Shown here: piece by piece, positions 32,085 to 36,055 of the stretch
How positions within the stretch are numbered: the first letter of the stretch is position 1
How the letters are laid out: the number at the start of each line of letters is the position of its first letter
NCBI RefSeq assembly: GCF_002855575.1
Contig: NZ_PKRQ01000005.1
Location: 62,001 to 126,000, forward strand
DNA length: 64,000 bases
Origin: Tabrizicola sp. TH137
GTDB lineage: Bacteria > Pseudomonadota > Alphaproteobacteria > Rhodobacterales > Rhodobacteraceae
Direction: 5' to 3'
Notes under the pieces: generated by a model
Told to the model about the DNA's origin: nothing
The model's database searches: none
Seen by the model: only the letters and a program-made list of their open reading frames with translations
Position numbers and translations under genes: made by a program

Positions 32085-32155
32085 GATCCGCCTCCCTTGG
32101 AAATTTGTATGATGCAGTGTATATTCCATTCCACATTCTTCAAGGGAGACGCCCC

Positions 32156-32404
32156 ATGACCCGCCTCGCCACGCCGAACATCTGCACCATGACCGAGTTG
32201 CGGGAACCGCAAAAGGTTTTCGACCGCGCCAATGGCCAGCCGGTGGCGATCCTCAAGAACTCTGCCCTTGTCGGCTATCTCGTCCCGGTCGAGGCGGTGG
32301 ATCAGACCGAACACCGCGTGGCGACGCTGGAAGAGGTGATGGAGGTTCTCGAACGTTCCCGCGAGCGTGTCCAGCCCATCCTCGATTATCTGCGTGGCAA
32401 ATGA
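32156..32404 (+). CDS. Phd/YefM-family antitoxin
   Basis: An 82-residue protein whose N-terminus (ICTMTELREPQKVFDRANGQPVAILKNSALVGYLVP) is the Phd/YefM dimerisation and DNA-binding fold; the C-terminal helix (LEEVMEVLERSRERV) would wrap the toxin. It neutralises Doc and represses the operon. AAGGGAG precedes the ATG. The stop overlaps the toxin start (ATGA at 32401-32404), the classical arrangement. Confidence 0.88.
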   Translation: MTRLATPNICTMTELREPQKVFDRANGQPVAILKNSALVGYLVPVEAVDQTEHRVATLEEVMEVLERSRERVQPILDYLRGK

Positions 32405-32784
32405 CCTTCATCCTTCTGAGTGCCGAGTTGGTCGAGCGTATTCACGACCATGTCCTGAACCCTGGCGAGATCCCCGGTCGGGCGCGCGACAAATCCCTTG
32501 AAGGCGCGCTTGGCCGGGTGGACAATCGCCTGACCTATGGGATGATCGAAGATGCCTTCGATCTTGCTGCCGCCTATGCCATCGCCATCGCCCAAGGCCA
32601 CTGCTTCAACGATGCGAACAAGCGAACGGCGTTCCGAGCGATGCATGCAGTCCTTGCCCTGAACGGCATACAGATGGTGTTCGAAACCGAGGAGACCGGC
32701 CAGGCCATCATCCGCGCCGCGCAGCGCCTGATGGATGAGGGGGAGCTTGCCGTTTGGCTCCGCCAACGCGCGGCCAGGGGGTAA
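32401..32784 (+). CDS. doc: Doc-family (death on curing) toxin
   Basis: A 127-residue Fic-fold kinase. The motif HCFNDANKRTA (His67-Arg75) matches the canonical Doc HxFxDANKR active site; P1 Doc phosphorylates elongation factor Tu and halts translation. SLEGALGRVDNRLTYG near the N-terminus is the usual Doc preamble. All active-site residues are present, so the toxin looks functional. It sits directly upstream of parE, 81 bases from it. Confidence 0.92.
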   Translation: MTFILLSAELVERIHDHVLNPGEIPGRARDKSLEGALGRVDNRLTYGMIEDAFDLAAAYAIAIAQGHCFNDANKRTAFRAMHAVLALNGIQMVFETEETGQAIIRAAQRLMDEGELAVWLRQRAARG

Positions 32785-32865: not shown

Positions 32866-34821
32866 ATGGCCAATGACCTCCTCTCCTCCGGGGACCAGAG
32901 CTACAACGCCTCTTCCATCGAGGTGCTCGAAGGGCTGGAACCCGTTCGCAAACGCCCCGGCATGTATATCGGCGGCACGGATGAACGCGCGCTTCACCAT
33001 CTTGTGGCGGAAATCCTCGACAACGCCATGGATGAGGCGGTGGCCGGCCATGCCACGCGGATCGAGGTGGAACTTCACGCCGATTACGCCGTCACCATCC
33101 GCGACAACGGGCGCGGCATCCCGATCGACCCTCACCCCAAATTCCCCGGCAAATCCGCGCTGGAGGTGATCCTCTGCACGCTCCATGCAGGCGGCAAGTT
33201 CGGCGGCGATGCCTATGCCACCTCGGGCGGTCTGCACGGGGTCGGCGCGTCCGTCGTCAACGCCCTGTCCGATCACATGCGGGTGGAGGTGGCGCGCAAC
33301 CGCGAGCTTTTTGCCCAGGAATTCTCGCGCGGCATCCCCAAGGGGCCGGTGGAAAAGGTGGGGCCAGCCCCCAACCGGCGCGGCACATCCGTCACCTTCC
33401 ATGCGGACCACGAAATCTTCGGCAGCCAGACCTTCAAGCCCGCGCGGCTGCTCAAGATGGTCCGCTCCAAGGCCTATCTCTTCTCGGGCGTGGAAATCCG
33501 CTGGAAATCCGCCATTTCCGACGGCGAAACCCCGCAAGAGGCGGTGTTCCATTTCCCCGGCGGTCTGGCCGATTACCTGTCCGACTCGCTGGCCAAGACA
33601 TCCACCTATGCCGACCGCCCCTTCGCCGGAAAGGTCAGCTTTACCGCGAAATACAATGTCCCCGGTTCCGTCGAATGGGCCATCAACTGGACGCCCGCGC
33701 GGGACGGGTTCATCCAGTCCTATTGCAACACCGTGCCCACGCCCGAAGGCGGCACGCATGAGGGCGGCTTCTGGGCCGCGATCCTGAAAGGCATCCGCGC
33801 CTATGGCGATCTGGTCAAGAACCGCAAGGCCGAACTGATCACCCGCGACGACCTGCTGGCGGGGGGCTGCGCGCTGGTCTCCTGCTTCATCCGCGAACCG
33901 CAATTCGTGGGGCAGACGAAGGACCGTCTGGCGACAGAAGAGGCCGCCAAATGGGTCGAAGGCGCGGTGCGCGACCATTTCGACAACTGGCTGGCCAATG
34001 ACACCAAATCGGCAGGCGCGATCCTCGATTTCCTCGTCCTGCGGGCCGAGGAACGGCTGCGGCGGCGGATGGAAAAGGAAACCGCCCGCAAATCCGCGAC
34101 CAAGAAACTGCGCCTTCCCGGCAAGCTGACCGATTGCACCGCGAAATCGCGCGAGGGGACGGAGTTGTTCATTGTGGAGGGCGACTCGGCCGGCGGTTCC
34201 GCCAAGGGCGCGCGGGATCGGGAAACGCAGGCGCTCCTCCCGCTCAAGGGCAAGATCCTGAACGTCCTCGGCGCGGCCTCGGCCAAGCTGCACGACAACA
34301 GCGAGATTCGCGACATCTGCGAGGCGCTGGGGGTGGGCATGGGCACGAAGTTCAAGGTCGACGATCTGCGCTATGACAAGATCATCATCATGACCGATGC
34401 CGATGTGGACGGGGCGCATATCGCCTCGCTCCTGATGACCTTCTTCTTCACCCAGATGCGGCCGCTGATCGACAAGGGCCACCTCTACCTCGCCTGCCCG
34501 CCCTTGTATCGGCTGACCCAAGGGGCGAAGCGCATCTATGTGGCCTCGGATGCCGAAAAGGAGGAATGGCTCGCCAAGGGCCTGGGCGGCAAGGGCAAGA
34601 TCGACGTGCAGCGCTTCAAGGGTCTGGGCGAGATGGATGCCAAGGACCTGAAGGACACGACGATGGACCCGAAGTCGCGCAAGCTGATCCGGGTGAGCAT
34701 CGACGAGGACGCGCCGGGCGAGACGGGCGATCTGGTGGAACGCCTGATGGGCAAGAAGCCGGAACTGCGGTTCCAGTATATCCAGGAGAACGCGCGGTTT
34801 GTGGAGGAGTTGGATGTGTGA
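32866..34821 (+). CDS. parE: DNA topoisomerase IV subunit B
   Basis: A 651-residue ATPase subunit of the enzyme that decatenates daughter chromosomes. GHKL ATPase motifs are AEILDNAMDEA and DNGRGIP, followed by KFGGDAYATSGGLHGVGASVVNALS. The TOPRIM domain begins ELFIVEGDSAGGSAKGARDRETQALLP and contains IIMTDADVDGAHI. The C-terminus ends FQYIQENARFVEELDV, the normal family end. Its stop TGA overlaps the start of an unrelated AT-rich gene (TGATG at 34819-34823). Confidence 0.97.
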   Translation: MANDLLSSGDQSYNASSIEVLEGLEPVRKRPGMYIGGTDERALHHLVAEILDNAMDEAVAGHATRIEVELHADYAVTIRDNGRGIPIDPHPKFPGKSALEVILCTLHAGGKFGGDAYATSGGLHGVGASVVNALSDHMRVEVARNRELFAQEFSRGIPKGPVEKVGPAPNRRGTSVTFHADHEIFGSQTFKPARLLKMVRSKAYLFSGVEIRWKSAISDGETPQEAVFHFPGGLADYLSDSLAKTSTYADRPFAGKVSFTAKYNVPGSVEWAINWTPARDGFIQSYCNTVPTPEGGTHEGGFWAAILKGIRAYGDLVKNRKAELITRDDLLAGGCALVSCFIREPQFVGQTKDRLATEEAAKWVEGAVRDHFDNWLANDTKSAGAILDFLVLRAEERLRRRMEKETARKSATKKLRLPGKLTDCTAKSREGTELFIVEGDSAGGSAKGARDRETQALLPLKGKILNVLGAASAKLHDNSEIRDICEALGVGMGTKFKVDDLRYDKIIIMTDADVDGAHIASLLMTFFFTQMRPLIDKGHLYLACPPLYRLTQGAKRIYVASDAEKEEWLAKGLGGKGKIDVQRFKGLGEMDAKDLKDTTMDPKSRKLIRVSIDEDAPGETGDLVERLMGKKPELRFQYIQENARFVEELDV

Positions 34822-35666
34822 TGCTGGAAAAGAATTACTTGGCTAGTGCTGAGGACTTTCTCTCGGAAGCCATAGAAAACATTATTCAAGCACAGGCAAA
34901 CCAATCGCGCTGGAAGTTTGCTGCGGTGAACCTCGTGGCAGCACTTGAGCTTTCCTTAAAGGCAAAGCTAATTTCGGTGCACCCAGTGCTTGTCAGGGAG
35001 ACACTTGACTCGAAAAGGCGATCAATCAGCTTAGTTCAAGCGCTAGCGAGACTGAAGGACCCGGAGATTTATGGACTTCGGATACCCCAACAAGCAGAAC
35101 ACAGTATCGCAAGCGCCGTCGACCTGAGGAATGGAGTTTCTCATGGAGTGCTGTTTGAGAATGAAAAATCAATTGCATCAAAGTGCTTTGAGGTGTTTGC
35201 GTTTGTTCGCTTTTTTCTTCAAAGCGAATTTAATGTAGATCTCTCCAGCTTTGTAAACAAGAACTCACTTAAGAAGATCCTCGAAATTGCTCGACGGCGC
35301 GAAGAGTTCCTAAATCACGCAAAGAATCAACTCATCGAGAACGAAAATGTCTATTGCTGCCCAGACTGCGTTGAAGACTTTCTTGTGATACGCAAGGGAA
35401 GGTTCATTTGTCTTCATTGTATGTATAGTGAGGATCCGCAGTCCTGCGCAGATTGCGGCACAGAGCTCCCAAGCACAAAAATCTACCCTCTATCTGAGTA
35501 CTTCGAATATGCATTTGAAGACGGGCACACACGATTGCTAAAGGACTTCGGCATGCCCGACATAGAGGTGTGCTTGGAGTGCCTTAGAAAGAGACGTGAT
35601 GAGATTGAAACGCAACGCTTCCAAGATATGGTCGAGGACTTCTACTTCCAAATTGCCACCAGTTAG
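34821..35666 (+). CDS. AT-rich accessory protein with HEPN-like Rx4H motif and zinc-ribbon cysteines
   Basis: A 281-residue protein I do not recognise as a named family. Residues 1-135 are helical and DUF4145/HEPN-like, with RNGVSH at 103-108 matching the Rx4-6H active site of HEPN ribonucleases. Residues 178-254 hold cysteine pairs: C180/C183, C197/C200, C209/C212 and C251/C254, suggesting one or two zinc ribbons. Base composition differs sharply from neighbours: 34861-34920 is about 45% G+C, and rare-type codons (AGA, TTA, CTA, ATA) are frequent. The ATG overlaps the parE stop, so it may be translated by coupling. Likely horizontally acquired; a defence or toxin role is inference. Confidence 0.75.
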   Translation: MLEKNYLASAEDFLSEAIENIIQAQANQSRWKFAAVNLVAALELSLKAKLISVHPVLVRETLDSKRRSISLVQALARLKDPEIYGLRIPQQAEHSIASAVDLRNGVSHGVLFENEKSIASKCFEVFAFVRFFLQSEFNVDLSSFVNKNSLKKILEIARRREEFLNHAKNQLIENENVYCCPDCVEDFLVIRKGRFICLHCMYSEDPQSCADCGTELPSTKIYPLSEYFEYAFEDGHTRLLKDFGMPDIEVCLECLRKRRDEIETQRFQDMVEDFYFQIATS

Positions 35667-35764
35667 TGAATGCGCATAATTCAGGCAGATAGGCTACAGT
35701 CAAGACGATTGAAATCGCCCCAAACACCGCCCAAAGCACTCGCGTAAGTTAAATTGGCAACCCT

Positions 35765-36055
35765 ATGTCCCAAACCTTCGAAAGCATCATGCGCGGCCTG
35801 ACCGAGGTCGAAGCCTATCTCAAAGGCAACACCTCCGGCGCCATCACCCATCATATCGAAGTCCCCACCCCCGACGTGCGCGCGATCCGCGCCAGCACCG
35901 GCCTCAGTCAGGCCGACTTCGCCCGCTCCATCGGGGTCAGCAAGGGGACGCTGGTGAATTGGGAACAGGCCCGCCGCCGCCCCGAAGGCCCGGCGCGCGT
36001 CCTGCTGGCGCTGATCGCCAAGGACCCGACCATCGTGCAAAGGATGCTGGCGTAG
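35765..36055 (+). CDS. Orphan HTH antitoxin-like regulator (HigA/NadS-type)
   Basis: A 96-residue DNA-binding protein with a lambda-type helix-turn-helix, VRAIRASTGLSQADFARSIGVSKGTLVNWEQARRRP, near residues 38-72 and an N-terminal extension (MSQTFESIMRGLTEVEAYLKG) typical of antitoxins usually preceded by a RelE/HigB toxin gene. No such toxin is upstream; the preceding gene is the AT-rich HEPN-like one, 98 bases away. Its stop TAG is the first part of a TAGGGTGCGTG hairpin. Confidence 0.85.
   Translation: MSQTFESIMRGLTEVEAYLKGNTSGAITHHIEVPTPDVRAIRASTGLSQADFARSIGVSKGTLVNWEQARRRPEGPARVLLALIAKDPTIVQRMLA

Follow-up and report, generated by a model that had tools for sequence, protein, structure and literature searches.

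A gene at positions 34821-35666 of Tabrizicola sp. TH137 DNA (the window: 64,000 nucleotides of contig NZ_PKRQ01000005.1, positions 62,001 to 126,000) encodes a 281-residue protein, P0001, and occupies a slot directly behind parE. We infer that P0001 is probably a horizontally acquired, stand-alone HEPN ribonuclease (RNase) acting in defence of the abortive-infection type. Its slot is a recurrent one, invisible from a single sequence and more interesting than P0001 alone: about half of the examined genomes of the family have it filled, by AT-rich genes that vary between genomes, mostly stand alone and in many cases are related to phage-defence genes.

In the mechanism that we propose, P0001 is probably translated together with parE via a one-base stop/start overlap. 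Its N-terminal half would form a HEPN endoribonuclease domain with R103 and H108 as the putative active site, and a C-terminal Cys4-type zinc module would probably sense an infection cue or restrain the RNase. Once triggered, the protein would cut cellular or phage RNA and growth would stop.

A foreign-looking HEPN-like and zinc-ribbon-like gene at the parE stop codon

The features of the gene and of its left flank are the following:
32866-34821, + strand: parE, a core gene and left edge of the slot (name presumed from the sequence)
34792-34821, + strand: last ten codons of parE, GCGCGGTTTGTGGAGGAGTTGGATGTGTGA, a cargo-associated tail (from the sequence)
34821-35666, + strand: P0001, HEPN / zinc-ribbon-like gene (open reading frame list, sequence check, PADLOC match)
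34821-35240, + strand: predicted N-terminal HEPN-fold domain, residues 1-140 (structure model and structural matches)
35127-35144, + strand: RNGVSH, residues 103-108, Rx4H RNase motif in which a polar residue follows R (sequence, alignment)
35358-35582, + strand: four CxxC pairs, residues 180-254 (sequence), which may bind two zinc ions

The upstream frame presumably encodes topoisomerase IV subunit B. The ATG of P0001 and the TGA of parE share one base; here the frame list and sequence check bear out a first-pass annotation, made from the sequence alone, that had placed a 281-residue frame at 34821-35666 with its ATG overlapping the parE stop. The frame lister leaves P0001 open back to a start at 34566, within parE. 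We favour 34821 because residue 1 aligns with position 1 of the PADLOC model PDC-S64, and because the frame of a homologue in genome G307 likewise opens at the parE stop, with TTG.

The composition of the gene is foreign, as had been claimed from about 45% G+C in 34861-34920; we measured 0.45 for this segment inside the gene. P0001 as a whole has a G+C content of 0.461, next to neighbours of 62-72%, and a content at third codon positions (GC3) of 0.51, against 0.84-0.87 in parE and the three genes downstream of P0001 and 0.74 in a Doc gene. Along the whole window, only 34801-35400 and 35101-35700 fall below 0.55 in a 600-bp profile.

The RNase motif of the HEPN superfamily is Rx4-6H with a polar residue after R, according to the accessible text of PMC3710099, and RNGVSH satisfies this definition. 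The motif is weak on its own, since R[NDH]x3-5H also appears in 259 of 2000 shuffles of the protein. The assignment is made rather from conservation and predicted fold: R103, N104 and H108 are invariant across five aligned members (P0001 and four homologues), and structural matches to the P0001 model cover residues 1-140, with HEPN entries at the top of the list. A single-sequence model of residues 1-170 brought no improvement (predicted local distance difference test, pLDDT, 59). The N-terminal half is thus predicted to adopt a HEPN fold. This agrees with the first-pass annotation, which had proposed a HEPN-like domain around RNGVSH (103-108) that a structure lacking the HEPN bundle would contradict; the predicted model is HEPN-like.

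The four CxxC pairs (180/183, 197/200, 209/212 and 251/254) lie exactly where that annotation had seen a C-terminal part of zinc-binding appearance. No set of four arose in 2000 shuffles, which places them beyond chance, and the nearest homologue retains all of them. They are predicted to bind two zinc ions; model confidence is mostly below 50 over this region (residues 180-254).

P0001 belongs to a candidate defence family

P0001 is a new member of the candidate family PDC-S64, a single-gene phage-defence candidate of PADLOC, whose model it matches with E=2e-14; the best stretch aligns residues 1-162 with model positions 1-168 of 339. The earlier suggestion of an undescribed system must be narrowed accordingly: a related candidate family was already in PADLOC, although literature searches on its name listed no functional description of PDC-S64. 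By eye, a paralogue in the same genome and the members in genomes G570 and G542 also seem to combine a HEPN-like half with Cys-rich repeats. P0001 differs in that its C-terminal half lies outside the best stretch, in its length (281 residues against 339 model positions) and in its place behind parE.

Relatives of P0001 are rare and sporadic. Searches returned only P0001 itself among 61 related genomes and among 367 genomes of the class, and itself plus the G307 homologue, whose frame is interrupted by TAA, among 394 genomes of the family. The PDC-S64 profile matches 5 of 289 class genomes, own genome included. No relatives turned up in viral contigs, in phages or by a pattern search of genome contigs; the plasmid matches, of 22-29% identity, are genes of Streptomyces and allies. 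Such a distribution is not that of homologues which are all vertically inherited housekeeping proteins, the outcome that the first-pass annotation had named as contrary to its proposal.

The paralogue, a second PDC-S64-like HEPN/Cys-rich gene, lies near a contig end (L043, G000:C16, 413-1375). At the ATG taken, it begins 2 nt after the stop of hsdR, which matches EcoR124 HsdR with E 6e-34. The G570 member is surrounded by genes that we take to be other defence genes; for one neighbour, presumed to be AbiEii, no PDB match was obtained and the label was rejected.

Behind parE, roughly half of the surveyed slots are AT-rich

AT-rich DNA directly follows parE in 9 of 13 other genomes of the genus, with a different gene in each; the parE ends of these 13 are 84-95% identical to that of the window. 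By the same rule, 31 of 62 slots are AT-rich in other genera of Rhodobacteraceae and 37 of 76 in a survey of named genomes. As the genome sets overlap (named L276 and L277 repeat L031 and L038), the counts are not summed. The 62 slots (at least 800 bp) were read from 112 other-genus genomes with a parE match, mostly those with more similar parE; the named set comprised 80 loci, four of which were dropped for less than 800 bp.

Control genes behave differently. In a like-for-like sample, 14 of 29 slots are AT-rich behind parE versus 0/29, 0/30 and 0/30 behind what are presumably aspC, fumC and proS (Fisher 1.5e-10). The AT-rich threshold was chosen after the first slots had been seen, then left unchanged for the controls; with a relative cut of 0.08 the counts become aspC 0/29, fumC 1/30, proS 6/29 and parE 14/29, and with 0.12 they are 0, 0, 1 and 12. 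Random gene ends, taken from 400 kb of a single genome of the genus, are AT-rich in 4 of 253 cases. Outside the family, none of 23 slots is AT-rich where parE has a G+C content of at least 0.48, and the three flagged slots all lie behind parE of 0.36-0.39. The rule overlooks filled slots of higher G+C (L086, with an Mrr gene, and L280, whose gene is related to that of L118) and counts slots without a frame of 120 residues (L096, L312, L319, L338 and L345). Altogether, the locus has the properties of a defence hotspot: a fixed flanking core gene and variable content above background.

On its right side, the slot of the window is delimited by two features:
35667-35764, no strand: right junction region (from 35761 on, the nucleotide sequence is again homologous to the relative L029)
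35765-36055, + strand: HigA-2-like antitoxin gene, right edge of the slot (match to HigA-2 antitoxins)

In L039, repeated GTAGGGTGCGCACTCGCTGCGCACC palindromes fill a GC-rich slot, about 105-600 nt past the parE stop, and similar palindromes occur near the slot edges in L029 and L038.

Cargo genes are diverse and rich in defence families

The 80 cargo proteins of at least 120 residues, P0001 included, form 63 clusters; the main frame has a median length of 231 residues (72 slots). Since two of the 11 clusters with more than one member are the same genome fetched twice, nine families recur in slots of different genomes.

The nine same-genus slots hold an RNase T-BRCT protein, a weak HEPN, a weak DUF5677, DUF5343 plus Hypoth_Ymh, Abi_alpha and HEPN_RiboL-PSP, with no significant match for three. 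Among 40 of the 43 cargo proteins of the first set, Pfam recognised Abi_alpha, AbiTii, HEPN_AbiU2, Hypoth_Ymh, DUF4145, Mrr_cat, DUF2726 and three HEPN_RiboL-PSP (one just below the cut-off), with weaker HEPN and DUF5677 matches; 15 of the 40 had no match at E<=0.1. A further 31 of the 36 proteins of the named set (duplicates and second frames omitted) gave AbiU2 three times, HNH_5 twice, and Mrr, GmrSD, SieB, Abi_C, AbiJ_NTD3, RelA_SpoT and others once each.

At E<=1e-10, the first 41 cargo proteins, P0001 among them, yield 11 PADLOC names and the 31 others yield 8, versus 2 for 41 proteins drawn at random from a single genome of the genus; the comparison counts names, not members, and its control is not limited to accessory genes. 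The matches include PycC (1e-82), NsnA (6e-90), TIR-TM, AbiTii, PD-T7-4 and Mrr-type enzymes, as well as the single components PD-Lambda-3_B and PD-T4-2_A. Slot content is therefore enriched in defence families relative to the random proteins. Because the parE slots of other genomes hold defence-related genes, the defence role that the first-pass annotation had suggested for P0001 gains support from them, the role itself still being a matter of interpretation.

No slot cargo matched 748 kb of non-slot DNA of the family, 400 kb of it from one genome. In a genome-wide search of 179 genomes, one RiboL-PSP cargo was found in two, its own genome and a second one, each time directly at parE. Together with the P0001 pair, these few cases hint at a cargo pool private to the slot.

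Several cargo genes deserve mention individually. The one in L292 (7409-8134) looks like a nucleotide cyclase by eye; one of the 31 proteins, not further specified, matches Pycsar PycC at 1e-82. Likewise, L317 (7099-8109) seems to encode a RelA/SpoT-type protein, the matching member being unspecified in the tables. A minus-strand gene of 207-212 residues, without a Pfam match, sits in the three parE slots L118, L132 and L280 (57-74% identical); a 74-residue frame follows it in L118 and L132, and the L280 copy is without AT-rich composition.

The end of parE is recoded together with its cargo

The comparison covers 147 distinct parE ends whose slot is known to hold cargo (74 ends) or not (73 ends); L040, whose parE frame ends early in the assembly, is excluded here and kept in the slot and cargo-strand counts. 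Asp at position -3 is encoded by GAT in 73/74 ends with cargo versus 29/73 without. Similarly, Val -2 is GTT in 52 versus 15 and Leu -4 is TTG in 51 versus 17. Further up parE, the usage of GAT, GTT and TTG is 24%, 3% and 8%. The codons at -2, -3 and -5 show the strongest association, which is also seen at -6 and -9 and remains, weakly, to about -15; above that, we see only isolated small differences (e.g. -21 and -33), in the opposite direction.

In GC-matched genomes, GAT is found in 49/50 ends with cargo versus 14/37 without. A four-codon score of at least 3 is reached by 63/74 versus 17/73 ends (Fisher 1.4e-14, relatedness ignored). The window itself has three of the four scored codons (GAG, TTG and GAT), with GTG in place of GTT. 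Recoding is independent of cargo strand (14/16 on the minus versus 48/56 on the plus strand, p=1.0).

On a parE tree of the 76 named genomes, cargo underwent at least 19 changes. Of 15 independent pairs, on average, GAT went with cargo in 8.0 and against it in 0.0 (median p 0.008), and the four-codon score in 8.2 and 1.2 (median p 0.04, range 0.02-0.18). The link is thus weaker in phylogenetically independent pairs, but it persists.

One pair of loci illustrates the exchange. The empty slot L085 reads ...GTCGAGGAACTCGACGTCTGA, followed by the next gene; the filled slot L088, of another genus, reads ...GTGGAGGAGTTGGATGTTTGA, and some 800 nt of cargo lie between it and that same gene. The host tail is exchanged for another and has not been displaced to the right end. 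Co-recoding of the end of an essential gene would be a direct molecular trace of cassette movement.

Cassettes may move without a recombinase in cis

A crude scan of the fetched slots (up to 5 kb) for tyrosine-recombinase motifs, which did not cover serine recombinases, gave one doubtful match, in a long minus-strand frame. Direct repeats of the parE end show no clear excess: the longest is 10, versus 11 in one swapped control, and repeats of at least 9 occur in 25 versus 17 of 77 slots. The exact tail motif is present in 13 of 61 genomes, once per genome and only at parE. It has no occurrence in viral contigs, only partial matches in phages and three matches in plasmids (84-89% identity), of which two lie in Tritonibacter replicons of 1.2 Mb. 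The joint replacement of tail and cargo, where neither an integrase nor a repeat was recognised and each genome with the motif has one copy of it, fits a recombinase acting in trans or short-homology recombination at the tail.

Gene transfer agents carry small DNA fragments. Their occurrence in this bacterial family is described in the accessible part of PMC8224337, and they may be a natural vehicle for the cassettes. We tentatively propose that the 3' end of parE in Rhodobacteraceae could be the landing pad of an undescribed cassette exchange, a possibility that falls somewhat short of likely. Single AT-rich defence genes, from a pool circulating mainly between parE slots, would be swapped in and out, and the last ~27 nt of parE with them, with no recombinase in cis; P0001 would be one such cassette.

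Other signals were tried without success. A displaced parE tail at the right end gave one chance-level match in 74 cargo slots, one in the 73 others and one in shuffles. The core site of integrons is GTTRRRY, which GTTGGAT of the parE tail fits, though not decisively; 19 of 74 cargo genomes have CTG, not TTG, in the tail, and the right ends have only GC-rich words in common and no attC-like word, in a search that did not use an attC model. At their right ends, the slots of the window and of L088 share an 11-base word that is in no other slot.

Alternative explanations

P0001 could instead be a toxin whose antitoxin is encoded by the XRE gene at 35765-36055: this gene is adjacent, on the same strand, and matches HigA-2 antitoxins. 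In L030 and L033, however, the antitoxin comes after a gene that we take to encode a HigB/RelE-like toxin, absent in front of the antitoxin of the window, while L029 retains the antitoxin with an exonuclease-BRCT gene in the slot. Given these arrangements, we regard the HigA-2-like gene as the right flank and not as the partner of P0001, and the pairing as very improbable. A non-catalytic or housekeeping HEPN/zinc protein that binds RNA or nucleotides, co-regulated with parE and without a link to defence, would suit the tight overlap with parE, and some HEPN families lack RNase activity (as stated in the accessible text of PMC3710099). It is quite improbable in view of the retained active-site residues, the low GC3, the presence of P0001 in 2 of 394 family genomes, and a slot partner that varies among same-genus genomes with parE ends 94-95% identical to the window's.

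The other two alternatives concern the slot itself. It might be an ordinary island attachment site, where integrase-borne elements enter the 3' end of parE and leave decayed remnants; recoding focused on about the last nine codons, regardless of cargo orientation, is what 3'-end integration would leave. The lone doubtful match of the tyrosine-recombinase scan, the lack of a displaced tail at the right, the absence of a clear repeat excess and a tail motif confined to parE in the 13 genomes with an exact copy, and absent from the viral contigs, argue against such islands, which we consider rather unlikely. Selection for expression would explain the tail without recombination, through translational coupling and an embedded GGAGGAG-like ribosome site: the tail often holds GGAGGAG, and of 56 cargo frames on the plus strand, 23 start no more than 25 nt from the stop of parE (frames taken at the first possible start, so that distances are lower bounds). 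Yet minus-strand cargo has the tail as often, and GAT, GTT and TTG should contribute nothing to a ribosome site. This explanation is improbable.

Relation to known systems

Like the Abi-type HEPN RNases and Csm6/HepT (accessible text of PMC3710099), P0001 has a predicted HEPN fold, by comparison of its model, and an Rx4H motif whose R is followed by a polar residue. Unlike them, it has a Cys4 zinc-like part, no adjacent nucleotidyltransferase gene and no recognised CARF sensor. Its neighbours are parE and the HigA-like gene, so the nucleotidyltransferase gene of HEPN/MNT toxin-antitoxin pairs is absent next to it.

Defence hotspots between core genes reportedly include the core hotspots of P. 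aeruginosa and islands of E. coli. The parE slot resembles them in its fixed locus between core genes, rapid turnover and wealth of defence genes. It differs in its usual content, a single small gene in each genome, in its position at the stop of an essential gene, in being family-wide and in the recoding of the last parE codons. Integron cassettes, and Tn7-like elements behind glmS (accessible parts of PMC8649781 and PMC10293859), also target a conserved gene end and bear defence cargo; the parE slot has no recognised transposase or integrase and no common right-end repeat that we could find, and its cargo consists of single genes without mobility functions. Many gene-transfer hotspots lack recognisable mobile elements, according to the accessible text of PMC5635113.

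We found no report of the parE slot in the literature covered, which included the accessible parts of PMC13386836, PMC5635113, PMC8649781, PMC10293859, PMC6699656 and PMC8224337 and left most subscription papers and preprints outside. This kind of hotspot is known; what appears new is the parE slot with its mostly one-gene habit, its family-wide reach and the recoded parE tail, and possibly more. Its fixed address (147 parE ends, 74 filled) mostly holds one AT-rich gene each, a good share of them defence-related. This makes the slot a source from which unknown anti-phage genes of a large marine and soil family could be discovered, and a clean setting in which to study the movement of defence genes in the absence of any visible mobile element.

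Finally, a Phd/Doc-type pair lies upstream of parE, at 32105-32784 of the window. Its Doc-like protein matches Death on curing structures with E 1e-16; the partner is presumably Phd.
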